Source: a virus. Taken from it: a stretch of 22,617 nt of DNA. The notes beneath the pieces were generated by a model that was given only the letters and a program-made list of their open reading frames with translations, was not told the origin of the DNA and searched no databases. Below are positions 4,863 to 19,607 of this stretch, in pieces (the stretch's first letter is position 1; each line of letters starts with the position of its first letter). Where the stretch lies: positions 1 to 22,617 of IMG/VR virus record IMGVR_UViG_3300009168_000124; one strand, 5' to 3'. The translations under genes and the position numbers were made by a program.

Positions 4863-5795
4863 CTAGCTCGCCATCGCCGCGGCGCGGTTGATCACCTGAG
4901 CGGCTACGGCCACCGGATCAGCCGACACCGGCGTGATGGTCTGGTACACGTTCACCTGCTTGTTGATGGCGGCGCCAGGCTGGCCGCTCTGCGTCGGCAG
5001 TGTCTGGCCCCGCAGCAGCGCGGCCATTGCCCGCACGCTCGGGTCCACGAGGTTGAGCGGGCGGTCGAGCGGGATGACCGCCTCCCGGCCCGCCTCACCG
5101 ATGATCTTGGCCGTGGGCGAGGCGTAGACGCCGCCCTCGGCGTCGAAGGGGTTGAGACCGCTGACGGCGCCGCCGATGCCGCTGAGTATGTCGCCGGGGC
5201 TGGGGATGAAGCTCTTGATCTTCGACGTGATCGCGCTGCCCATCGAGCCGATGCCCTGGAGGATGAAGTCGACGATGGAGCGACCCACGCCGACAAGCGA
5301 GCTGGCGGCGCCGCTGATGGCGCTGGCGACCTGACCGGGTAGCCCGCGGCCCCACGCCAGGAGCGATTCGACGGCACTGGTGATGCCGCTCATGATCCAA
5401 CCCACGAGCGACTTGCCGACGGCGGTGATGACGCCGATGCCGGTGGAGATGGCGGCGACGATCTGCCCCGGTATGGCGGTGAAGAAGGCGACCACCTCGA
5501 GAGCCCAGCCCGCCAGCGTGGACATGACGGACGCGGCCATCTCCACGAACCACCCGACCACCATCGCGATCAGCTGGCCGCCCAGCCCGGCGAGCATCCC
5601 CGGTAGGCGTAGGAACCAGTTCACGATCCCGTTGATGAGGTCCGGGATGATGCTGTTGCCGATGAGGCGGTTGAACAGGTTCACGAACCAGTCGATGACG
5701 CCCTGGACCCAACCCGCGACGATCCCGATGACCTTGGCCAGTACGCCGCCGAACTCGGCCAGGATCGAGGCCAAGGCGTCCGCTACGACGCCCAC
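4863..5795 (-). CDS. Tape measure protein, C-terminal fragment (separate ORF after frame change)
   Basis: 310 residues from GTG 5795. Many amphipathic and hydrophobic helices (residues about 1-200) are followed by a Gly-rich segment and IIGEAGREAVIPL (about 235-247), a signature of the end of siphophage tape measure proteins. The GTG has only a poor ribosome site. Reading upstream in the same frame gives VEALTDLV, which joins smoothly to the end of the preceding ORF. This is therefore best read as the second part of one tape measure protein split by a one-base frame change near 5813-5818. The alternative is a truly split gene with independent initiation. Confidence 0.8.
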   Translation of the reverse strand: MGVVADALASILAEFGGVLAKVIGIVAGWVQGVIDWFVNLFNRLIGNSIIPDLINGIVNWFLRLPGMLAGLGGQLIAMVVGWFVEMAASVMSTLAGWALEVVAFFTAIPGQIVAAISTGIGVITAVGKSLVGWIMSGITSAVESLLAWGRGLPGQVASAISGAASSLVGVGRSIVDFILQGIGSMGSAITSKIKSFIPSPGDILSGIGGAVSGLNPFDAEGGVYASPTAKIIGEAGREAVIPLDRPLNLVDPSVRAMAALLRGQTLPTQSGQPGAAINKQVNVYQTITPVSADPVAVAAQVINRAAAMAS

Positions 5796-5803
5796 AAGAT
5801 CGG

Positions 5804-7927
5804 TCAGCGCCTCGACACAGTGCCGATGGCGCTGGAGAACCCGGCAAGGGCGCCGTTGATGGTCAGCAGCAGCGGAGTGAGGGCGACGAGGACCTCGTTG
5901 GTCAGTTGCAGCAAGACCGTCAGCAGGGGCGCGAAGGCGGTCAGCAGCTGCGCCCCCACGGTGACGAGCTGGAGGCCCGAGGTCACCAGGACCGGCAGCA
6001 GCGGGGCCATGACGAGCAGGACCTGACTGACGAGCTGCATGAATACCGGGATCAGGGGCGTGAGGGCCTTGAACAGTTCGTCGAAGACGTCGACCACGAG
6101 GGGCAGCTGCTCGGCGAGCTCCTTGGTCAGTAGGTCGATGACGGGCGAGAGAACAGGCTCCAGCTGCGTGAAGGCATCGACCAGGAACTCGACGGCCCGG
6201 ACGAACAGGTCCGCGATGATCGGCACGAGCGGGGCGACGGCCCGCAGAAGCTGCCCGAGCAGCCGACCGACGGCGTTCAGCAGGGGCTGAAGTGCGGTCA
6301 GGGCTTCGGCCAAGGTCTCACCGATGACGGTGGCGATCTGCTTCAGCGGGACAAGCAGCGGCTGTATGGCCTCGGCGATCTGCGCCAGCGCCTGCGCCAG
6401 CAGCTGGAAGACGCTGATGCGGCCGGAGATGTTGAACAGCTCCCCCAGCACGGGCAGCATCGCCCCGAGGTTCGTGGCGATGTCAGCGATGGCCGTCAGG
6501 GTGTTGGGCTGAACGAGGTTCTTGAAGAAGCCGACCGCCCCTTCGAGGAGGGGGGTCAGGTCCGACAGCAGTTGGCGCCCGGTGGCGAAGAACTGGAGCA
6601 GGGCGTCCTGGCCGGGGCCGGTGTTCAGCCACTCGTTGAACTTGCCCACGATGTCGGAGAGCTTCTGCACCAGGCCGGTGCCGCCTTCGGCCCCCGCCTG
6701 GAAGATCGTGAAGAGCGTCGCGCCGATGTTCTTCAGCAGGTCCCACCACGTCGAGAGCGCGGAGAGGCCGTCCTGGAGGAAGTCGTTGATGGCGCCGCTC
6801 TGCTGGCCCGCCGTGACCATCGCCAGAAGGCTCTCGGCCGACAGCTTCAGCATCTCGGCCAGGCGGGTGGCGGCCGGGGTGGCGGCCGTGAGGAACGGCC
6901 CGATGGACTGGACCACCGTCGAGATGGCGTCGCTCAGGCTCGCCATAGCGGGAGTCAGTCCGCCGACAAGCTGCGAGAAGTCGATGGTCTTCAGCGCGGC
7001 GACCAGGTCCTTGCCGAATGTGTTCGCCTGTCCGGCGGCGATCACCAGGGCCTCGCCGACGTCGGGGATCACGTTGGTGGCGAGGTCACGCAGGACGTCA
7101 CCCATCCCGGCGAACAGGGCCTCCTGTACGGCCTCCTGGATGCCGTGCAGCTGGGGCAGGATTTCCGAGAAGGCCACGGCGGTGTCGCGGGCGGCCGGGG
7201 TCAGGTCCTTCAGCGCCTTCTGAATGTCCTCGGCCTGGAGGTTGAAGGCCCGGCCCTCTTCCAGAGCGGTGGCGAACTCGGTGTTGATGGCCTTGAAGGC
7301 GGTGACCATCCCCTTCGACCCGACCAGCACGGCAGCGACCCCGGCGCCGAGGCCGAACAGCAGGGGCGTGAGCGCGCCGATGGACCCACCGAGGGCCTGG
7401 AGGGCCGAGCCGAGTACCTGCGTGATGACGGAGGCGAGCCCTTCGAAGATGGCGACGAGCGGCTCGCCCAACTCGACGATCCCGGCGAGGATCAGCTTCA
7501 TCCGGCCGCTCAGCCCGCGGCCGAACCCCTTGCCGAAGGCGTCGCCGGACTTGTTCCCGCTGTCGCCCATGCCGCCCTCGATCTCAGAGCGGGCAGAGGC
7601 CAGTTCCGTCTCGTCCACATCGACGCCGACCTCGGCCTCGATGCCGGACAGACCCTTGTTGATCTGGGCCTTGGCCGCCTTGATGTCGGCGGTGTCCGCC
7701 TCGATGTCCAGGTCGACGTCGATGTTCTTGAGCTGCTCCTCGACCTGCTTCTTGATGAGGGCGATCTTCTTCTTGAGCTGGGAGCCGTCGACCTTGCCCA
7801 GCTCGGAGTCGATCTGATCGGCGGCGCCCTTGCCCGCCTCTTTGCCCGCCGCCGTGACCTGAGCCTTCAGCTTGCCGGTGTCGGCATCGACGGTTACCTC
7901 GATGTGACCGACAGTCGGCCCGGCCAT
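5804..7927 (-). CDS. Tape measure protein, N-terminal part
   Basis: 707 residues. ATG 7927 overlaps the chaperone T stop as TGATG, with GGAGGT six bases upstream. Residues about 1-125 are charged and helical, probably coiled coil (QLKKKIALIKKQVEEQL). A Gly-rich patch (about 128-145) leads into hydrophobic helices (about 145-215), then long repeating Leu/Pro/Val-rich helices with recurrent P-L-L-P-V or P-L-(L/I) patterns, typical of tape measure proteins. The protein sets tail length and is ejected with DNA, forming a channel in the membrane. It ends abruptly at GTVSRR, just before the C-terminal fragment in the -1 frame. Together the two parts give about 1,020 residues; the usual rule of about 1.5 angstrom per residue suggests a tail near 150 nm (inference). 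Confidence 0.93.
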   Translation of the reverse strand: MAGPTVGHIEVTVDADTGKLKAQVTAAGKEAGKGAADQIDSELGKVDGSQLKKKIALIKKQVEEQLKNIDVDLDIEADTADIKAAKAQINKGLSGIEAEVGVDVDETELASARSEIEGGMGDSGNKSGDAFGKGFGRGLSGRMKLILAGIVELGEPLVAIFEGLASVITQVLGSALQALGGSIGALTPLLFGLGAGVAAVLVGSKGMVTAFKAINTEFATALEEGRAFNLQAEDIQKALKDLTPAARDTAVAFSEILPQLHGIQEAVQEALFAGMGDVLRDLATNVIPDVGEALVIAAGQANTFGKDLVAALKTIDFSQLVGGLTPAMASLSDAISTVVQSIGPFLTAATPAATRLAEMLKLSAESLLAMVTAGQQSGAINDFLQDGLSALSTWWDLLKNIGATLFTIFQAGAEGGTGLVQKLSDIVGKFNEWLNTGPGQDALLQFFATGRQLLSDLTPLLEGAVGFFKNLVQPNTLTAIADIATNLGAMLPVLGELFNISGRISVFQLLAQALAQIAEAIQPLLVPLKQIATVIGETLAEALTALQPLLNAVGRLLGQLLRAVAPLVPIIADLFVRAVEFLVDAFTQLEPVLSPVIDLLTKELAEQLPLVVDVFDELFKALTPLIPVFMQLVSQVLLVMAPLLPVLVTSGLQLVTVGAQLLTAFAPLLTVLLQLTNEVLVALTPLLLTINGALAGFSSAIGTVSRR

Positions 7928-10362: not shown

Positions 10363-11286
10363 TCACGGTGCGACGCCAGCGACCCATGCCGTGCCGTTCC
10401 AGTACGCCTGACCGGCGGCGCCGGACGTGGCGGTCTGCACGTACGAACCTGCGCCCCAGGCCGTGGTCGGGGAGGCGACGAAGGTGTTGGGCGTGCCCGC
10501 GATCAGGTTGGGCACATTGGCCGGGGGCTGGTTGCCGGACGGCGTCCAGTTACCGGCGGCCCCAGCGACCTCGGTGGCTCCGGTGGCGAACGGCGTGGTC
10601 GGGGTCAGCTCGACGCAACCTTCGGTCGGCTCCGGTGGGGCGACGGTGGTGAAGGCGACGTAGAGGTGGTCGTCGGGATCGAGCGGGTCGGGCAGCGGAC
10701 CGGGGTTGCCGGTGGCATCGCCCATCACGTCGTTGTACGGGCCGGTTCCCCAGCCATTGCCGTCCTTCGTGGTGGCGCCGGTGATGGTGAAGGTGACGGC
10801 GGCGTTCTCGATGGTGAAGTCGCCGATGACCCCGCCCTGGAGGCAGGGGAGCAGGAGGTAGCCGAAAGCACCGGCAGCGCCGGAGCAGGCCACGCCGGGG
10901 ACGCCCATCCAGACCTCGAGAGCGAAGCCACGGTCGCAGGCGCTGATGCCGGAGTTCATGCGGAAGCCGATGGCGTCGCCATCAGCGTTGAGCACGACGG
11001 GCTGGCCGGTGATGAGCGAGAAGAGGCAGGGCGTCACGTCGCAGAAGGTCAGCTCGACGCCGTAGCCCTGGAACTCCGGGCAGCCGGTGTCGCGCACGCA
11101 GGTCTTGCCGTTGGCGTTGGTGACGACGATCTCATCGGGCGTGTTGACGGTGGCGGTGAGGGCGACCGAGACGAAGCCCTCGGTGACGACCGAGTTGTCC
11201 GGTCCGTAGGCGGGCGTGCAGCACCCGTCGAGGCCCGTCACGCGCATCGTGCGGCCTCGGACCAAGGGGAAGGACGTGGCAGCCAT
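10363..11286 (-). CDS. Major tail protein with extra C-terminal domain
   Basis: 307 residues. ATG 11286 has AGGAGG five bases upstream. Residues about 8-225 (RGRTMRVTGLDGC, ELTFCDVTPCLFSLITG, GGVIGDFTIENAAVTFTITG) match the tail-tube protein of actinobacterial siphophages as I know it. The tube polymerises around the tape measure. Residues about 236-307 form an added domain, rich in Gly, Ala, Thr and Trp, ending YWNGTAW. It is clearly similar to the end of the major capsid protein in this window. Such extra domains usually sit on the particle surface and may aid adhesion or stability (inferred). About 10 Cys are present in the tube domain. Confidence 0.88.
   Translation of the reverse strand: MAATSFPLVRGRTMRVTGLDGCCTPAYGPDNSVVTEGFVSVALTATVNTPDEIVVTNANGKTCVRDTGCPEFQGYGVELTFCDVTPCLFSLITGQPVVLNADGDAIGFRMNSGISACDRGFALEVWMGVPGVACSGAAGAFGYLLLPCLQGGVIGDFTIENAAVTFTITGATTKDGNGWGTGPYNDVMGDATGNPGPLPDPLDPDDHLYVAFTTVAPPEPTEGCVELTPTTPFATGATEVAGAAGNWTPSGNQPPANVPNLIAGTPNTFVASPTTAWGAGSYVQTATSGAAGQAYWNGTAWVAGVAP
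10366..10581 (-). other. C-terminal surface-type domain, copy in major tail protein
   Basis: Encodes residues 236-307 of the major tail protein. It shares GAT, (F/W)TPSG, PPA, TAW..G.YVQT, GAAG and YWNGTAW in the same order with residues 577-641 of the major capsid protein. DNA is also alike in places (a shared run GTGCCGTTCCAGTA on the plus strand). This indicates duplication and transfer of the module between two virion genes. Confidence 0.85.
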
Positions 11287-12192: not shown

Positions 12193-14118
12193 TTACGGCG
12201 CGGCGCCCTGTGTCCAGGCGGTGCCGTTCCAGTAGCTCCGTCCGGCAGCACCGGCGGTGCCCGTCTGGACGTACTGGCCCGTCGTCCACGCCGTGTTGGG
12301 CGAAGCGGTGAGGCCGGTCATGGCCGCGGGGCTGGCCGGGGGCGTCGAACCAGACGGAGTGAACGTGCCGGGGATTCCGGCCGTGGCTCCGGTGGCTGCT
12401 ACAACGCCGCCCCCACCGCTAGGGAATGTGGCGCACTCGGTGATGTCCGCAGCCGCGGTCCGGCCGCTGACGCAGATCGGGATGGTCACGAGGCAGGTGT
12501 GGGTGCAGCGCTGGACGGCGAGGATGCCCTCTTCCATGAACAGCGCCGTAAACACGTTCTCGGCCAGACCGGCGGAGTCGTAGACGGCGTCGATGTTGAT
12601 GACATCGGCGCGGCCCCGGACCCAGGTCCCGGCCGGGTACATGAGCGCGTCGACGGTGGCGGGCACCGTCACGGCGCACAGGTCGACGGCCAGGTCCTGC
12701 CAGTCGTAGACCCACTGAACGTGCATGTTGCGGGAGCTGAACCAGCCATCCAGCTCGGCGTCGCTGATGTTCCGGTTCGTGTTGAATGCCCGGCGGCCCA
12801 GGTCGCCGCGGATGAGCGGCTTCACCCAGAAGGGCAGGACGACCTCGATCGTCTGCGTCTGGCTCATGCGGTAGCGGTAGCGCATGCCCACCGCCAGCAA
12901 CTCCAGCATCTCCATGCTGATGGTGAGCGCCCCGGCGTCGTCGAGCACGACCGGGGCGCCGGTCGAGGCCGCCATCGTGTCGAGGACGTACTTGTTGACC
13001 TTGTGCTGCTGGGCGACCAGCGCGCCCTCCATGAACCGGCGGACCAGTTCGGGGTAGGCCGAGTTGGTCAGCAGCGGCGTCTTGACGCACAGGCCGATGG
13101 CATCGAGGCGAATCTCATCGAAGGGCGGGCACTCGACCATGCAGCAGTCCTTCTGCGCCGTCCCCGCGATGGCCTCTGCCTCGGTGAGGAAGAAGCCGCA
13201 GGCGTCGTAGATGTCGCTGAAGTCGGGGCCGGGCGTCCAGCGGATGCCGCCTCGGGTGATGTTGACCTCGGGGGCGTCGAGGATGCCGTCGACCGTCTCG
13301 AACTGGCAGAGGTCGTACAGCGTCTCGGACGGAGCGCACCAGCCACCGGCTGCGGTGAGCGACCCGCCGGGCAGGCGAGCCTCGCTCCCCGCCGCCCAGA
13401 CCAGGCCGTAGTCGTCGTGGACCTTGGCGTCCTGCGACAGGTCGTCGAAGCCACCGAGGCGGATCGTGGCGGCGCCGTACCGATTGCGGATCGGCGTGCT
13501 GCCGATGCGGCCGGTCGGCAGCGCTCGCATGCGGGCCATGACCGCAGCGCACACCGCATCGAGGCCGTCGAGCGGAGCGCCGGTGGGGATGCCGGGAACG
13601 TCGGCAGCGGCGGTCAGCGTGGCCACGGCGGGAGTACGAGGCGGGGCCGCGACGGTGGTCGTGGCGTTGGCCGCGGCGCGCCGGGCAGGCGACTGACGGG
13701 AGGGCGCAGCCGAGGCGGGAACCAACTCGGGCGTCACCGTCTCGACGGCTGCCGGGGCAGGCTCGGCGGCGGGAGCGGGGGCGGGAGCAGGAGCCACGGT
13801 CTCCGTGGCGGTCGACTCGGGCGGGGGGGCGTTGGGATCGGGCGGTGGATCGGGCGGCTCCTGGGGCGACTGCGCCTCGACCACGTTGACGAGGTTGGAG
13901 ATGCGATCGCGGCGGCCGACAGCGTGAGCCTCGGCGACGCGCAGCGCTTCCCGCGCTCGGGTGATGAGCGGCGCGATCCGCTCGCCCTCGGCCAGCACGT
14001 CGTCGGGAGACGCGTCGCTGATGTCGAGAGTACGGAAGGCATCGAGGCCAGCGTCGATGAGCGCCTGGAGATCGGCGACGGACAGCTGGTCAAGGTTCTC
14101 CGGCAGTTCGAACGGCAT
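12193..14118 (-). CDS. Major capsid protein with N-terminal scaffold-like region and extra C-terminal domain
   Basis: 641 residues. ATG 14118 is chosen because GGAGG lies eight bases upstream. Residues 1-80 are helical and charged, like a scaffold (delta) domain. Residues 85-165 are a Pro/Ala-rich linker. About 185-560 is the capsid body, with features of the HK97-fold capsid proteins of actinobacterial phages (helix with RRFMEGALVAQQHKVNKYVL, then WVKPLIRGDLGRRAFNTN and a beta-rich end). Residues 577-641 are an added domain shared with the major tail protein. No separate scaffold gene is seen, so the N-terminus probably serves and may be removed by the protease encoded two genes upstream (inference). 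About 14 Cys are present. Confidence 0.88.
   Translation of the reverse strand: MPFELPENLDQLSVADLQALIDAGLDAFRTLDISDASPDDVLAEGERIAPLITRAREALRVAEAHAVGRRDRISNLVNVVEAQSPQEPPDPPPDPNAPPPESTATETVAPAPAPAPAAEPAPAAVETVTPELVPASAAPSRQSPARRAAANATTTVAAPPRTPAVATLTAAADVPGIPTGAPLDGLDAVCAAVMARMRALPTGRIGSTPIRNRYGAATIRLGGFDDLSQDAKVHDDYGLVWAAGSEARLPGGSLTAAGGWCAPSETLYDLCQFETVDGILDAPEVNITRGGIRWTPGPDFSDIYDACGFFLTEAEAIAGTAQKDCCMVECPPFDEIRLDAIGLCVKTPLLTNSAYPELVRRFMEGALVAQQHKVNKYVLDTMAASTGAPVVLDDAGALTISMEMLELLAVGMRYRYRMSQTQTIEVVLPFWVKPLIRGDLGRRAFNTNRNISDAELDGWFSSRNMHVQWVYDWQDLAVDLCAVTVPATVDALMYPAGTWVRGRADVINIDAVYDSAGLAENVFTALFMEEGILAVQRCTHTCLVTIPICVSGRTAAADITECATFPSGGGGVVAATGATAGIPGTFTPSGSTPPASPAAMTGLTASPNTAWTTGQYVQTGTAGAAGRSYWNGTAWTQGAAP
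12196..12390 (-). other. C-terminal surface-type domain, copy in major capsid protein
   Basis: Encodes residues 577-641 of the capsid protein, after a Gly-rich hinge (SGGGG). The same motif order occurs at the end of the major tail protein (10366-10581). It is likely exposed on the capsid surface; that is an inference from its terminal position and flexible linker. Confidence 0.85.
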
Positions 14119-14234
14119 GAGGGCCTCCGACGGGTTCCGAGGGTGGACAGGGGGAACCGCCAACCACACCGGCCCTTCGGGGCCTGGACGCTCGGGAGCT
14201 TCGCTCTGAACCGGGCGGGTTGCTGGGCGGGACT
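14119..14234 (-). promoter_or_regulatory. Leader region of the capsid gene with small GC hairpin
   Basis: This 116-base gap before the capsid ORF is one of the longer gaps in the window. It holds a perfect 5-bp GGCCC/GGGCC stem with a four-base loop at 14171-14184 and the GGAGG site of the capsid gene. No convincing -10/-35 pair is visible. It may carry a capsid-gene promoter or a processing site, but the sequence alone does not show this. Confidence 0.3.
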
Positions 14235-14646: not shown

Positions 14647-17004
14647 TCACCCTACGGTTTCGAGCAGGCGACGGGCACGCTCGGCGCGGAGGGCGTCGGT
14701 GATCCGGGCGGCGCGGGCGTGGCGGTCCCGCTTGTCCAGCGCGGCGGTGACGCCCTTCTCCACGACCAGCTCGATACGGCCGTAGCTGACGTTGGGATCG
14801 ACGGTCACGATGGCCGCCGCCGTGAGCGACAGAACCATGTCGCCCGAGGCCGCCATCGACACGCGGGGGATGGGAAAGCCGGGGACGTTCACCACCAGCG
14901 CTCCCACCAGCTCGAGGTTGCCAGCGATGCGCCGCCAGTCGCCCGAGAGCGCTCCCGCCTTGACGGCGTGGACCTGGGCCTCGGTGACGCCGGGACGCGT
15001 GGCGCCCGCGACCCAGATGCCGAACTGGTCCTCGCCCGCGGCGACGTCGGCCACGACCGTGCCGGTGTGGTCGTAGTGGCGCACCGTCTCGTTGGGGCTG
15101 AGGTCGTCCCCGGCGTGGCCGGTGTTCATGGTGATGTTGCCGACCGACACCGGGCCGCCCGCCGTCTCGACCTCGCCGGTGCGGAAGTAGGCGTAGTCGT
15201 GGGTCGAGCGCGGCGCCGTGACGCACTGCTTGTCGATGCCGACGTGGCAGGTGTCCCACGTCGCCAGATGGCCGCTGACCTGACCGTCGGCCGAGATGGT
15301 CAGCGGCATGGGGCCGTCGAATCCGGGGTCCTGGAACCATTCGATGGGCGGGAGCATGGTGTCCTCCAGTTCGTCGGCCGCTGAGAAGGCGGCGAGCACA
15401 GCTAGTAGCTCGGGCGAGTCGAGCTGGACGTCGATGGGTTCGAGAGCGGCGGCCGACAGGCGATGCCCACGATGGCCGTGCTTGCCCTTGTGCGGACCCT
15501 GGTTGGGCCAGAAGCCGAGGGCGACGTAGTGCAGGTTGGCGCAGGTGCCGTCCAGGTACGCCTTGTTGTGGATGTACTTGCCCAGCTGGCGGCGGCAGCG
15601 GTTGAAGTCGCCGGGCGCGCCCCAGCCGATCTTGGCCACGCCCTTGCCGCGTGTCCAGTACGTCCGCAAGCGCTGCGTCTCGCGCGGGTTGGTGATCCAG
15701 CCCGGGGCGTCGTGGGTGTTCACCGGGCCTACCGCCACGAGGGCCTCGTCATCGAGGGAGGCGGCGAGCGAGTCGGGCGGCTCTTCCTTCAGCTGCGAGT
15801 AGAGGCCACGCAGCGCCCGGCGGGCCTTGGCCTTCTGCTCAGCGGGTGCGTTCACGCCGCCGCGGGCGCCAGCCAGAGCAGCCGCGGCGGCGTGAACACC
15901 GGCCCGGTTCACGGTCCCGGTCGGGGTCCGCACCGGAAGCTTGCACTCGCCCTTGGACGTGGGCGCGCCGCTGTGCAGATGGATGAGACAGGCCCTGTGC
16001 CACTGCTCGATGGAATAGTCAGCGGCTGACCACTTCGACCACGGCTCCTCGGAGATGGCGGCGGTCACGTGATCGTCGCCCCACCACAGCTCCACGCCGT
16101 CGAGCATGACCGAGCGCGGCGCGCTGTCGGGCGGGTCGATGCCGTAGCCGAGCGTCATGTGTGGGGTGAAGTGCGGATGCTTGCCGTCGGGCGTGGCCAC
16201 GCCTTCGAGCGAGCGGCGCAGCGCTTCCAACTCGGGCGACTCCAACAGCAGCACCGTCGCCTGCGGGTCGTCGTCGCCCATGCGGGCCACGCCGCCGACG
16301 CTGGCCTCGGCCATCAGCGACTGGTTGCTGACCCAATGCGCCAGCGTCTCGCGCAATTGCTGCGACTGCTCGCCGGTGTGGCCGAAGAAGCCGAGGGTGG
16401 CGTGCAGGCCCTCGGGCGGCAGCCCTCCTGCGACGGCGAGACGATCGGCGTCGGCCACGCGCGCTACGACGGCGATGCCGTCGCTGGGTCCGGCAGCGGC
16501 GGCCAGTTGGTCGGACGCGGCCACGTCGAGGCGGCACCGGCAGTTGATCCACACGTCGGGCGGACCGACCGGCTGACCGGGGTACATCAGCGGGTAGCCG
16601 CCGACGTCGAAGGGCACACCGGCGGCGGTGGTCGTGCCGTGCAGCGGCACGTGCATCTCACGCACGCGGTCGTCCTGCATCGTGCGCCAGATGAAGCGGG
16701 CGCCGGGTTCGGCGGCGGCGACGGTGGCGGCGTTGATGGCAGCGGTGACGATCCACTGCGCGACGAGTTCGGGATCGGACTCGTCGGTGGTGGCGTCCAC
16801 GGCGCCGATGATGGAGGCGGCGAAGCGGTCGACCTCGCCCTGAATGTCCTCGGGTCCGCTGGACGGATCGAGTTCGTCCCACGCCGAGGCGAACAGTTCC
16901 TCGGCGATGAGGTGGAGGGCGGCGCGGCGCTCCTCCGCTTCGGTCGCGCCGATGGCGCGGGTGACCATCGGCGTGATGCGGCGCACGGCCCTGTCGTTGT
17001 CCAT
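14647..17004 (-). CDS. MuF-like minor head protein fused to 2H phosphoesterase and capsid maturation protease-like domains
   Basis: 785 residues. ATG 17004 is preferred over GTG 17007 because AGGAGG (17009-17014) is too close to the GTG. About 1-160 is MuF-like (RTMQDDRVREMHVPLHG, then PPDVWINCRCRL). About 175-330 has the two motifs of the 2H phosphoesterase superfamily: H201-A-T203-L and H282-M-T284-L, about 80 residues apart. About 340-410 holds KLPVRTPTG and LAGARGGVNAP; about 427-505 has THDAPGWI and WGAPGDFNRCRRQLGKYI; neither has a known function to me. About 550-720 resembles capsid maturation proteases of actinobacterial phages (GHLATWDTCHVG, TGHAGDD, VKAGALSGDWRR); H630 and S687 are catalytic candidates. 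The C-terminus is an Arg-rich helix. It follows the portal gene, as expected. No stop or frame break separates the domains. Confidence 0.82.
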   Translation of the reverse strand: MDNDRAVRRITPMVTRAIGATEAEERRAALHLIAEELFASAWDELDPSSGPEDIQGEVDRFAASIIGAVDATTDESDPELVAQWIVTAAINAATVAAAEPGARFIWRTMQDDRVREMHVPLHGTTTAAGVPFDVGGYPLMYPGQPVGPPDVWINCRCRLDVAASDQLAAAAGPSDGIAVVARVADADRLAVAGGLPPEGLHATLGFFGHTGEQSQQLRETLAHWVSNQSLMAEASVGGVARMGDDDPQATVLLLESPELEALRRSLEGVATPDGKHPHFTPHMTLGYGIDPPDSAPRSVMLDGVELWWGDDHVTAAISEEPWSKWSAADYSIEQWHRACLIHLHSGAPTSKGECKLPVRTPTGTVNRAGVHAAAAALAGARGGVNAPAEQKAKARRALRGLYSQLKEEPPDSLAASLDDEALVAVGPVNTHDAPGWITNPRETQRLRTYWTRGKGVAKIGWGAPGDFNRCRRQLGKYIHNKAYLDGTCANLHYVALGFWPNQGPHKGKHGHRGHRLSAAALEPIDVQLDSPELLAVLAAFSAADELEDTMLPPIEWFQDPGFDGPMPLTISADGQVSGHLATWDTCHVGIDKQCVTAPRSTHDYAYFRTGEVETAGGPVSVGNITMNTGHAGDDLSPNETVRHYDHTGTVVADVAAGEDQFGIWVAGATRPGVTEAQVHAVKAGALSGDWRRIAGNLELVGALVVNVPGFPIPRVSMAASGDMVLSLTAAAIVTVDPNVSYGRIELVVEKGVTAALDKRDRHARAARITDALRAERARRLLETVG
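15850..15897. repeat. Perfect 16-bp inverted repeat inside the MuF fusion gene
   Basis: Arms 15850-15865 and 15882-15897 (GTTCACGCCGCCGCGG and its exact reverse complement) flank a 16-base spacer. The arms are in codon phase with each other: on the minus strand one encodes Val-His-Ala-Ala-Ala and the other Arg-Gly-Gly-Val-Asn. It could form a strong hairpin in the operon RNA. No U-run follows. Confidence 0.9.
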
Positions 17005-17012
17005 CACGCCTC

Positions 17013-18812
17013 CTATTCGACGGGGGCCAGCGCCACCGGCCGGGAACCGATGAGCGCCGCCATCACGACCTGGCTGTGGTCGCGGTGGCTCCCCAGCAAC
17101 CCTCGCACGTAGAAGTCGAGCGTGGCGATGACGCCATCGGCGTCATCGGTGTACGGCTCCAGCACGGCGAAGGCGCAGTCCCACGCCCCGGCGAGCAGAT
17201 GGTCGGGATCACCGGCCAGGTGCTTGTAGACGTCGGTGGGCGCCATCTTCGTCGTGTCGGTACGGGGATGAGCGTTGCGGAGGCGGTTCCCGGCGCGCTC
17301 CAGCGCGCGGTACACGAGCACGTCGCACGCCGCCGCCAGGCTCGACTGCTCCCGGGTGGCGCGCTCCTCGGCCCGACGGCGCGACGGCGGGTTGCGGTTG
17401 GGCAGCTCGGGCGTGACGTCGGTTCGCTGGTCGTCGGGCGGCGGTCGGTTGGCTCCCGAGTCGGGGAGCAGACCCAAGTCGGCTCCGAGGAGGTGAAGCG
17501 CGGCCTGGGTCTGCTCCGGGCTGGTGGAACCCGTAGCGATCTTCCGCAGCAACCAGATACGCACCTGCTCGTCGCCCGGCGCGTCCTCCTGCTGGAAGCC
17601 CGTCTCCCGGCGCAGGGCGATGCCACTCAGCTCGCCCCGGTCGTAGAGCTCGATGGCTTCCTGGCTCCGGTTGGGCCGCAGACGGATGCCGGACGTGTCG
17701 GCGATGACGAAGTAGTCCTCGGCGTCGGGGACGAGTCCCTTCAACGCCGGTTGCAGATACTGCTCGGTCAGGGCGTAGGCGATGATGGCGAGCTTCGGCT
17801 CCAGGTGGGCCTTGACGGCGGACTCCTCGCTCAGCCAGGCGTTCCAGTGGTTGGCGTCGGCAACGCCCAGCAGGACCTCGGGCGGTACGTCGAGGCCGAG
17901 CGCCAGCCGCTTGATGGCGGCGTCGCGCATCTCGACGACCTTCTCGTCCAGGTCGGTCCAGAACTTGATCCACTCGTTCTTGCCGAGCGAGTCGGTCGGG
18001 ACCATCGCCACGATGGGCACGAGCGCCGAGGGGTCCTCGGGGTTCTCGATCGGCGTCATCATCGCCTCGGCCAGCATCTTCATGAAGTGCGTGGCCGGGG
18101 AGGCGGCAGGGTCGGCGCCCGCGGGGACCGGGAAGTCGACCTCGTTGGACAGGAACAGGATGCCGTTGCCCGCCAGGCGGGACCGGACCTGGGCGTTGAT
18201 GTGGGCGTCGTAGCTGCGAATCTGCCCGAGGGTGTTCAGGTTGGCCCGTACCGGACTGTCGGGCCGGGTGGGGTCGCGGGGATGCGGCGTCCAGGTGCGG
18301 ATGACGAGGTCCTGGGGGCTGAGCGACTCCGGCCCGCCCTCGGTGCCGAAGTCGGCCTGGAGGCGCACCGTGCCCGATGCGCCGTTGCCGAGCTGGGTGA
18401 CCTTCCCGGCAGCCAGGCAGTTCCAGTCGTCGCGGGCGGCGCGGTTGACGATGTAGACCTCACCGGCGACGGTCGTGTGGATGCCGAACAGCTGGAGCAT
18501 CTGGGCCTGGCCCTGTGGCCCGCCGTACAGCGCTTCCATCGCCTCGGTGGCCGGGTCCTTGGCGTCCATGATGGGCACCAGCATCCGGCCCTCACGCTTG
18601 GCCGGGACGAGGTTGGCCCGGGACAGGACGTTGCCGGTCCATTGCGCCACATAGCGCAACTCACCCGTCGTCTCCCAGAAGTTCCACGCCTGGTTCTGCC
18701 ATCCCTCGGGACGGCCCGCCATGTTCCGCGAGGAAGTGGGGAGTCGCACGGCCGAGGCCACGAAGCCGCTGGGAACCTTCAGCGGCGCTTCCGGTGTCCG
18801 GGTGCGCGCCAT
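17013..18812 (-). CDS. Portal protein
   Basis: 599 residues from ATG 18812, which begins 25 bases after the methyltransferase stop and has no clear ribosome site. The protein has the pattern of siphophage portals: an N-terminal helical segment with WNFWETTGELRYVAQWTGN, a beta-rich wing with VAGEVYIVNR and PQDLVIRTWTPHPRDP, then DAAIKRLALGLDVPPEVLLG, HWNAWLSEESAVKAHLEP and LTEQYLQPAL, typical of the stem/clip and crown-side helices of actinobacterial phage portals. The C-terminal quarter (about 460-599) is charged and Arg-rich. It forms the dodecameric DNA channel. The gene lies after the large terminase (with a three-gene insert) and before the MuF fusion. Confidence 0.93.
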   Translation of the reverse strand: MARTRTPEAPLKVPSGFVASAVRLPTSSRNMAGRPEGWQNQAWNFWETTGELRYVAQWTGNVLSRANLVPAKREGRMLVPIMDAKDPATEAMEALYGGPQGQAQMLQLFGIHTTVAGEVYIVNRAARDDWNCLAAGKVTQLGNGASGTVRLQADFGTEGGPESLSPQDLVIRTWTPHPRDPTRPDSPVRANLNTLGQIRSYDAHINAQVRSRLAGNGILFLSNEVDFPVPAGADPAASPATHFMKMLAEAMMTPIENPEDPSALVPIVAMVPTDSLGKNEWIKFWTDLDEKVVEMRDAAIKRLALGLDVPPEVLLGVADANHWNAWLSEESAVKAHLEPKLAIIAYALTEQYLQPALKGLVPDAEDYFVIADTSGIRLRPNRSQEAIELYDRGELSGIALRRETGFQQEDAPGDEQVRIWLLRKIATGSTSPEQTQAALHLLGADLGLLPDSGANRPPPDDQRTDVTPELPNRNPPSRRRAEERATREQSSLAAACDVLVYRALERAGNRLRNAHPRTDTTKMAPTDVYKHLAGDPDHLLAGAWDCAFAVLEPYTDDADGVIATLDFYVRGLLGSHRDHSQVVMAALIGSRPVALAPVE

Positions 18813-18837: not shown

Positions 18838-19473
18838 TCAGGCCGTCAGGGCACCGAGTAGTTGTTCGCCGAGGAAGGCGGTGTAGGCGGGCGGGATGGC
18901 CTGGGTCATCTCGTCGCCGGTCATCCAGTGTGTGCCCATCGCCGCCGCGCTCAGCTCCCGGCGCACCCGGTAGGTGCCGACCTCGACGGTGAAGCGGGGG
19001 TTGGGCCGGTTGCTGGCCGGGGGGAAGGCGCGCTCGCGGGGATGGCTGCACACCGAGCCGACCAGGGCGACGTTGGACTCGAACAGGCGGTGACGCCGCA
19101 CGTACAGGCCGAAGCTCGACCCGCACAGCTGCACCGGATTGACGAGCGGGGCACCGGGGACGTTCTCGATCACCCACACGTGGGCCCGGGCCATGAGCAT
19201 CCGCCGGGTGATCCAGATGAGGTCGACGGCGTTGCGGTTCACGCCCCGGCGGCGCCGGTAGGCCGACCATGCCTGACACGGCGGCGAGGCGTGGACGACG
19301 TCGAAGTCGGCCAGGAACTCAGGGCGCCTGAGAATGGCGAGGGCGTCGGCGCGGATGAAGTCGTAGGGGTAGCGGGGCTGGTCGACGTGGTCCACGCCCA
19401 CCACCTCGAAGCCCGCTCGGGCGTAGCCCACCGACGCCCCGCCCGCCCCGCAGAACAGGTCGAGCAGCCTCAC
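18838..19473 (-). CDS. DNA (cytosine-5-)-methyltransferase
   Basis: 211 residues from GTG 19473, which overlaps the stop of the 45-residue gene as GTGA; this and motif I at residues 4-12 decide the start. Motifs are in order: I LDLFCGAGG; IV SPPCQAWS with catalytic Cys66; VI VIENVPGA (Glu103); VIII-like LYVRRHRLFE; X QAIPPAYTAFLGEQLL. It transfers a methyl group from S-adenosylmethionine to cytosine C5. At 211 residues it is shorter than classical enzymes (300-400), with a very small target-recognition region, as in other phage-encoded forms. No partner restriction enzyme is nearby, so it is probably an orphan enzyme protecting phage DNA from host restriction. Target sequence cannot be read from the sequence. 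Confidence 0.9.
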   Translation of the reverse strand: MRLLDLFCGAGGASVGYARAGFEVVGVDHVDQPRYPYDFIRADALAILRRPEFLADFDVVHASPPCQAWSAYRRRRGVNRNAVDLIWITRRMLMARAHVWVIENVPGAPLVNPVQLCGSSFGLYVRRHRLFESNVALVGSVCSHPRERAFPPASNRPNPRFTVEVGTYRVRRELSAAAMGTHWMTGDEMTQAIPPAYTAFLGEQLLGALTA

Positions 19474-19607
19474 CGGAACAGCTTCCCGCACGCCGTGCAC
19501 TCGCTGGCGTAGCCCATGAACCGTTCGTCGCCGTGGATGAAGCGGATGGCCCACGAGGGATGGGGACACTGACGCTGGTACCGGCGCCACCGCCACCAGC
19601 CGAACAT
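19470..19607 (-). CDS. Small zinc-ribbon-like protein
   Basis: 45 residues from ATG 19607, which shares its A with the stop of the DUF1360-like gene (TGATG). It begins MFGWWRWRR and has CPHPSWAIRFIHGDERF and then ECTACGKLFR. The C-P-H and C-x-x-C pairs could form one zinc site. Small proteins with the IHGDE core are familiar from actinobacterial phages but have no known function. Translational coupling on both sides argues that it is real. Start within the longer upstream frame was rejected because the overlap-coupled ATG fits better. Confidence 0.75.
   Translation of the reverse strand: MFGWWRWRRYQRQCPHPSWAIRFIHGDERFMGYASECTACGKLFR

Follow-up and report, generated by a model that had tools for sequence, protein, structure and literature searches.

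Candidate self-excising 2H phosphoesterase cargo in a phage head protein fused to a predicted maturation protease

Why would a phage place a phosphoesterase in the middle of a head protein? The question arises from the window analyzed here, the whole 22,617-nucleotide stretch of IMG/VR record IMGVR_UViG_3300009168_000124, in which one long open reading frame follows the portal gene. An earlier sequence-only reading had described this frame as a 785-residue protein, immediately downstream of the portal, with a 2H phosphoesterase domain embedded between a MuF-like and a protease-like region. We agree on the frame, which runs from 17007 to 14650 on the minus strand and encodes 786 amino acids from a GTG or 785 from the next codon, an ATG, and the embedded position of the 2H domain is supported by Pfam, PHROG, AlphaFold, and Foldseek. 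That reading numbered residues from the ATG, and numbers counted from the GTG are one higher. In a full-length AlphaFold model, the protein consists of ordered domains and low-confidence linkers. The genes and domains under discussion are as follows.

17013..18812, minus strand: portal protein, directly upstream of the fusion frame (phrog_776, E 3e-143)
14650..17007, minus strand: fusion of MuF, 2H, a linker domain, a phrog_6439-like domain, and a C-terminal head-protease-type domain (profile matches and AlphaFold)
16528..16773, minus strand: MuF domain, residues 79-160, ending WINCRC (PF04233 and PHROG)
16063..16485, minus strand: 2H phosphoesterase domain, residues 174-314 from the ATG (PF13563, AlphaFold, Foldseek)
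16393..16404, minus strand: first catalytic motif HATL, His202 from the GTG or His201 from the ATG (H and T invariant, 62/62)
16150..16161, minus strand: second catalytic motif HMTL, His283 from the GTG or His282 from the ATG (H and T invariant, 62/62)
15478..15684, minus strand: small conserved phrog_6439 domain, residues 442-510 (PHROG E 1.7e-21)
14854..15339, minus strand: C-terminal domain annotated as head maturation protease, with conserved His631, His644, and Ser688 from the GTG (phrog_18402, E 1e-58)
12193..14169, minus strand: major capsid protein, presumed main protease substrate (phrog_777, E 7e-152)

This domain order was computed directly from the window. The Pfam MuF family PF04233 scored 26.6 bits at residues 79-160, just short of its cutoff of 29.6. 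At E<=0.1, it was matched by all 11 of the relatives aligned, and two PHROG head morphogenesis families supported the assignment at 2e-14 and 6e-12. Judged by these profiles, the product classes as a phage MuF protein, with its MuF domain encoded in a gene adjoining the portal.

The case for the 2H domain is stronger. Two HxTL motifs had been predicted about 80 residues apart and lie exactly there, with 81 residues from histidine to histidine, and the span first proposed for the domain, 16015-16482, is close to the modeled one. Pfam 2_5_RNA_ligase2 (PF13563) matches residues 199-295 with an E value of 5e-9 and 36.8 bits against a cutoff of 27. The proposed fold was borne out by AlphaFold, which used 60 sequences to model a 163-residue segment enclosing the domain and reached a mean pLDDT of 90.2 and a pTM of 0.84. 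A Foldseek search of this model against the PDB gave 19 matches at E<=0.001, every one a 2H enzyme; the top five are all Acb1 structures (E 1e-5 to 9e-5), and LigT/ThpR come next (E 1e-4). The nearest viral predicted structures are long actinophage proteins named "RNA ligase" or "capsid morphogenesis protein".

Histidines that vary freely among relatives had been named as grounds for dropping the 2H assignment; instead, the His, Thr, His, and Thr of the two HxT motifs are invariant across 62 aligned 2H domains, and both motifs are kept in 12 of 12 members of an earlier, differently found set. Most of the 62 sequences were retrieved with the HMTL-type second motif as search pattern, which makes its invariance partly circular; the independent evidence comes from the first motif, conserved in every one of the 62, and from both motifs in the 12. 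Motif conservation and fold nevertheless exclude a chance origin by a wide margin, and with two HxT motifs and a predicted 2H fold the domain can be placed in the 2H superfamily on sequence and model. Across ten pairs, its dN/dS ranges from 0.16 to 0.75, below 1 in all ten and higher than that of the protease in eight. By this measure the domain is under purifying selection, but it usually changes faster than its neighbors. We consider it very probable that this is a working 2H enzyme.

Further MuF-2H fusions, which the sequence-only reading had suggested looking for in other phages, are readily found. The order MuF-2H-(phrog_6439)-protease is common to the cultured Arthrobacter phages Beagle and AWGoat and many IMG/VR contigs. 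In a homology-biased sample of 69 non-redundant viral 2H domains, MuF is encoded in the same reading frame in 30 cases and the C-terminal protease type in 35; at 8 further loci, 2H is joined to a different, HK97-like protease (phrog_80). A profile search of bacterial contigs with the full-length fusion alignment recovered 29 loci with the C-terminal protease-type domain, nearly all actinobacterial and mostly from Streptomyces, Gordonia, Rhodococcus, Nocardia, and other actinobacteria. At 13 of them the same frame includes a 2H domain, whose position varies: N-terminal, immediately ahead of the protease, or following it. The bacterial-contig search with the 2H alignment alone returned no relatives, and a plasmid search gave a single weak match, in Streptomyces. 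One relative of the window protein (L013), about 70% identical elsewhere, has no 2H domain, and its MuF runs straight into a short linker domain. This relative and the recurrence of the fusions indicate that 2H is an optional module that has repeatedly been joined to head-protease chains.

Several features of these relatives deserve mention in their own right. Most fusions conserve the phrog_6439-like domain, which other Mycobacterium and Gordonia phages also encode as a hypothetical protein of its own, close to the end of the genome. Four relatives (L014, L017, L007, and L009) have a second, HK97/S78-like domain (GHDGxVxVGRI, RGVSVD, IPAF) between MuF/2H and phrog_6439; it is absent from the window protein, so that a pair of protease-like domains may occur in certain chains only. 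In Gordonia phage Gray, positions 5665-7745 (L008) contain a standalone 2H gene, annotated "RNA ligase", directly before a gene for a VIP2-like ADP-ribosyltransferase, and the portal gene upstream of the pair has a MuF match at its end. This is another virion-gene cluster, with enzymes that are likely injected. The families phrog_2659, phrog_755, and phrog_14859 are likewise labeled "RNA ligase" yet match the 2H phosphoesterase region, and such labels hide the enzyme type in many annotations of head-gene fusions.

Part of this picture has already been published. In two papers, Iyer et al. describe 2H domains fused to MuF or portal proteins, predict that they are packaged and injected, and propose for MuF-2H either RNA processing or the countering of nucleotide-signaling defense (2017, PMC5512222; 2022, PMC9503650), so that both the fusion and the idea of injection against nucleotide signaling date from 2017 and 2022. 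According to the 2022 paper, Nudix domains too are found in fusions with MuF, with portal, and with the capsid serine peptidase (PMC9503650). Our search found no literature joining MuF with anti-CBASS activity. Compared with the fusions in the accessible text of those papers, the window protein differs in having a head protease in the same chain, and the wider set differs in having two protease types, several domain orders, and linker motifs matched to the capsid protein. Also related are the capsid maturation protease/MuF-like fusions annotated in actinobacteriophages (Beagle gp25, mycobacteriophages), which agree with the window protein in gene position and in their C-terminal domain. A 2H domain is likewise present in Beagle gp25 and AWGoat gp18 but goes unnamed in their annotations. 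Packaging and injection are consistent with MuF biology and with the published predictions (PMC5512222, PMC9503650), and we are fairly sure that the 2H domain is associated with the virion.

The C-terminal domain is named a protease by PHROGs and by actinophage annotators, and its gene lies between the portal and capsid genes. Across 89 non-redundant relatives, the serine of an SGDWR motif and the histidine columns are invariant or nearly so. The profile phrog_18402 is multidomain and also spans a 2H region, so its protease name is not proof of function. The domain had no solved-structure match in the PDB, a Foldseek search of the full-length model matched only the 2H domain, and a profile comparison with the HK97-like protease type gave no match, with an S78-like positive control failing as well. 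We treat the domain as a putative protease, in line with its sequence annotation.

Candidate processing sites for such a protease are the following.

13594..13617, minus strand: LTAAADVP at the prodomain/mature boundary of the capsid protein, the presumed maturation site, conserved in about 50 diverse relatives
16489..16506, minus strand: LAAAAG, degenerate candidate site in the MuF-2H linker (low-confidence linker 164-173)
16051..16068, minus strand: VTAAIS, candidate site just past 2H, with the capsid-derived motif (start of low-confidence linker 315-322)
15442..15459, minus strand: LSAAAL, degenerate candidate site before the C-terminal domain (inside low-confidence linker 506-527)
14809..14826, minus strand: LTAAAI, candidate site C-terminal to the protease-type domain (inside low-confidence segment 708-751)

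The capsid proteins of the roughly 50 diverse relatives have a common [LI][TV]A[AG]AD(V/L/I)P at the prodomain boundary, and a related motif recurs in the linkers of the fusions. We defined this linker motif as [LIVM][TVF]A[AGS] and, as with all our motif definitions, did so after inspecting the data. Of 21 non-redundant MuF-2H-protease fusions, 18 have it between MuF and 2H, 17 upstream of the protease domain, 16 downstream of that domain, and only 6 downstream of 2H. Composition-preserving shuffles averaged 1.5, 1.5, and 2.7 for the first three of these linkers, and 0 of 2000 reached the observed count in any of the three. In the Beagle and AWGoat fusions, the motif takes the forms TITAAA / LTAAA and SLTAAG / LTAAA, and it is also present in prophages with a different domain order. 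Beside the 2H domain, it occurs in 40 of 47 C-terminal-type fusions, taking all arrangements together, and in 0 of the 7 clear HK97-type fusions. ExK[AST] has the opposite distribution, at 7/7 of the HK97-type and 1/47 of the C-terminal-type fusions, although the seven HK97-type cases are closely related and so represent few independent events. The capsid proteins of the HK97-type fusion phages carry E-x-K-[ST]LG or EGKS, and the cut in HK97 falls between K103 and S104 (PMC10275583). If these motifs are cleavage sites, the linker version should change with the type of protease and agree with the capsid protein of the same phage, as observed here. This matching appears to be the new point here, no such rule having been found in the accessible text of the literature on MuF-2H fusions.

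In the window protein, strict motifs follow the 2H domain (VTAAIS) and the protease (LTAAAI, the best motif score in the protein), and the sites before 2H and before the protease are degenerate. In the full-length model, all four sites fall within low-confidence segments or at their margins. The sequence-only reading had proposed that the 2H domain is released by the protease of the same chain; the linker motif, which matches the capsid boundary and changes with protease type, speaks indirectly for that proposal, and the identity of the putative protease comes from annotation. The proposal resembles HK97 capsid maturation (gp4 protease, delta domain, K103/S104) in the presumed removal of a capsid prodomain by a head protease, and the HK97-like fusions share an ExK-[ST] motif with HK97. 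The window phage departs from HK97 in its different protease-type domain and its LTA-A type motif.

Two lines of doubt about this cargo have to be weighed, one over cleavage and one over catalysis. The linkers are rich in alanine, and their motif might mark the junctions of recombination modules or a compositional habit, with 2H acting while tethered in an intact neck protein. The degenerate copy upstream of 2H in the window would suit such an origin, as would copies in folded parts of the protein (residues 38, 87, and 665). Composition, however, does not reproduce the counts in the three linkers, the motif recurs at the prodomain boundary of the capsid protein, and fusions with the other protease use another motif that is again the one in their own capsid protein. 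We regard a non-cleavage origin as unlikely, if still a serious contender, and lean toward excision by the head protease, for which the linker sequences offer fitting candidate sites. The second doubt is that 2H might be a non-catalytic structural remnant used in assembly. Inactive enzyme-like domains are sometimes kept in phage virion proteins. Iyer et al. 2017 report an inactive PBECR domain in Mu gpF (PMC5512222). The invariance of both HxT motifs in 62 diverse members stands against a remnant, as does the close relative without 2H, which implies that the domain is not needed for assembly, and we think a remnant very improbable.

We infer protease activity, cleavage, packaging, ejection, and substrate, and would connect them as follows. 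The fusion frame would encode a head-assembly polyprotein in which MuF anchors the chain at the portal, the C-terminal domain acts as the head maturation protease of the phage, and 2H is enzymatic cargo flanked by cleavable linkers. As the head matures, the protease would cut the capsid prodomain and, at similar sites, the linkers of its own chain, so that the 2H enzyme would be set free within the head as a small protein. At infection, the free enzyme may exit with the DNA and hydrolyze a phosphodiester bond in host RNA or in a nucleotide signal, with a CBASS-type cyclic nucleotide as the leading candidate. Ejection into the cell seems to us about as probable as excision. That 2H is both packaged and released by the protease as an enzyme, leaving its substrate aside, is an evenly balanced proposition. 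The general form of the proposal falls slightly short of that: actinobacterial phages may load injected effectors as substrates of capsid maturation, with linker sites that suit the protease family, so that the fusion would serve as a self-excising cargo slot.

On the substrate, the Acb1-like and ThpR-like lines of evidence conflict. Acb1 cleaves cyclic di- and trinucleotides 3' of adenosine. Its structures (T4 57B, FBB1, BCSR5) are the top Foldseek neighbors of the window domain and share the HxT/HxT tetrad, a short sequence match to the PDB favors Acb1, and most 2H relatives have an aromatic residue or a histidine six positions before the second catalytic His, comparable to Acb1 F107. The best PDB matches of the family profile are to the penguinpox cGAMP phosphodiesterase, followed by LigT-type proteins and Acb1. 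Unlike the window domain, Acb1 is a free protein made during infection, and its His-His spacing is 69 (T4) rather than 81. Other described features of Acb1 are the adenine-contacting Glu141, Trp147, and a C-terminal lid (PMC9117128), and a poxvirus counterpart is known (PMC11410667). Formal membership in either family was rejected. The Pfam Acb1 profile reached 17.2 bits with the whole protein and 21.6 with the domain alone against a cutoff of 27, and profile comparison was weaker for Acb1 than for ThpR; the ThpR/LigT equivalog TIGR02258, though the best NCBIfam match, gave 28.3 bits against a cutoff of 65.7. PADLOC returned no match.

Given this conflict, we place cyclic (oligo)nucleotide defense signals first among the substrates, as a tentative choice that falls below an even chance. 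Next comes the possibility that 2H is an RNA end-healing cargo, a ThpR/LigT-like 2',3'-cyclic phosphodiesterase that would heal RNAs, such as tRNAs cut by anticodon nucleases, right on entry. The domain belongs to the same superfamily, its best Pfam family is 2_5_RNA_ligase2, its spacing is close to the 82 of ThpR, and profile comparison puts E. coli ThpR (94%, E 1e-7) ahead of T4 Acb1 (76%, 2e-5), even if TIGR02258 stays far under its cutoff. The idea of self-contained RNA repair is weakened because 18 related phage records, among them several possible fragments, yielded neither an ATP-grasp RNA ligase (PF09414) nor RtcB, although host ligases could still finish the repair. The window also lacks a tRNA gene, the annotation of the examined part of the Beagle genome lists no RNA ligase, and Iyer et al. 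2017 likewise never encountered this 2H type together with RNA ligases (PMC5512222). We hold RNA healing to be rather unlikely, and still less likely is an injected RNase that would cut host RNA or CRISPR RNA to the benefit of the phage, in the manner of the Usb1-type 2H exonuclease. The same paper suggests such a role for MuF-2H by analogy with MuF-RNase (PBECR) fusions (PMC5512222), but Foldseek matches to Usb1 are much weaker (E 6e-3 or worse) than those to Acb1 or LigT.

If the preferred reading of 2H as excised cargo is right, it would supply a concrete mechanism for freeing a MuF-linked effector to enter the cell. Agreement between linker sites and the capsid cut site of the same phage would also become a sequence rule for finding hidden cargo in other phage head polyproteins. 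The cultured phages Beagle and AWGoat, which have Arthrobacter globiformis as host, allow direct tests of the packaging, excision, and counter-defense activity of a virion-borne 2H domain, and would carry the prediction of 2017 into experiment.

Two other features of the window concern neighboring genes. The major capsid protein, at about residues 580-658, and the C-terminus of the major tail protein (10363-11286, minus strand) contain similar modules of ~70 residues with the pattern TAW..G.YVQT..GAAG..YWNGTAW..G.AP, and a phmmer search with the capsid protein matched a downstream frame of the same phage at 592-658. The shared module looks like a common surface decoration domain. Between the portal and terminase genes, 18838-19596 on the minus strand encodes a C5 cytosine DNA methylase-like protein (PF00145, E 3e-12), possibly an anti-restriction gene; Beagle and AWGoat also have a DNA methyltransferase gene adjoining the terminase.
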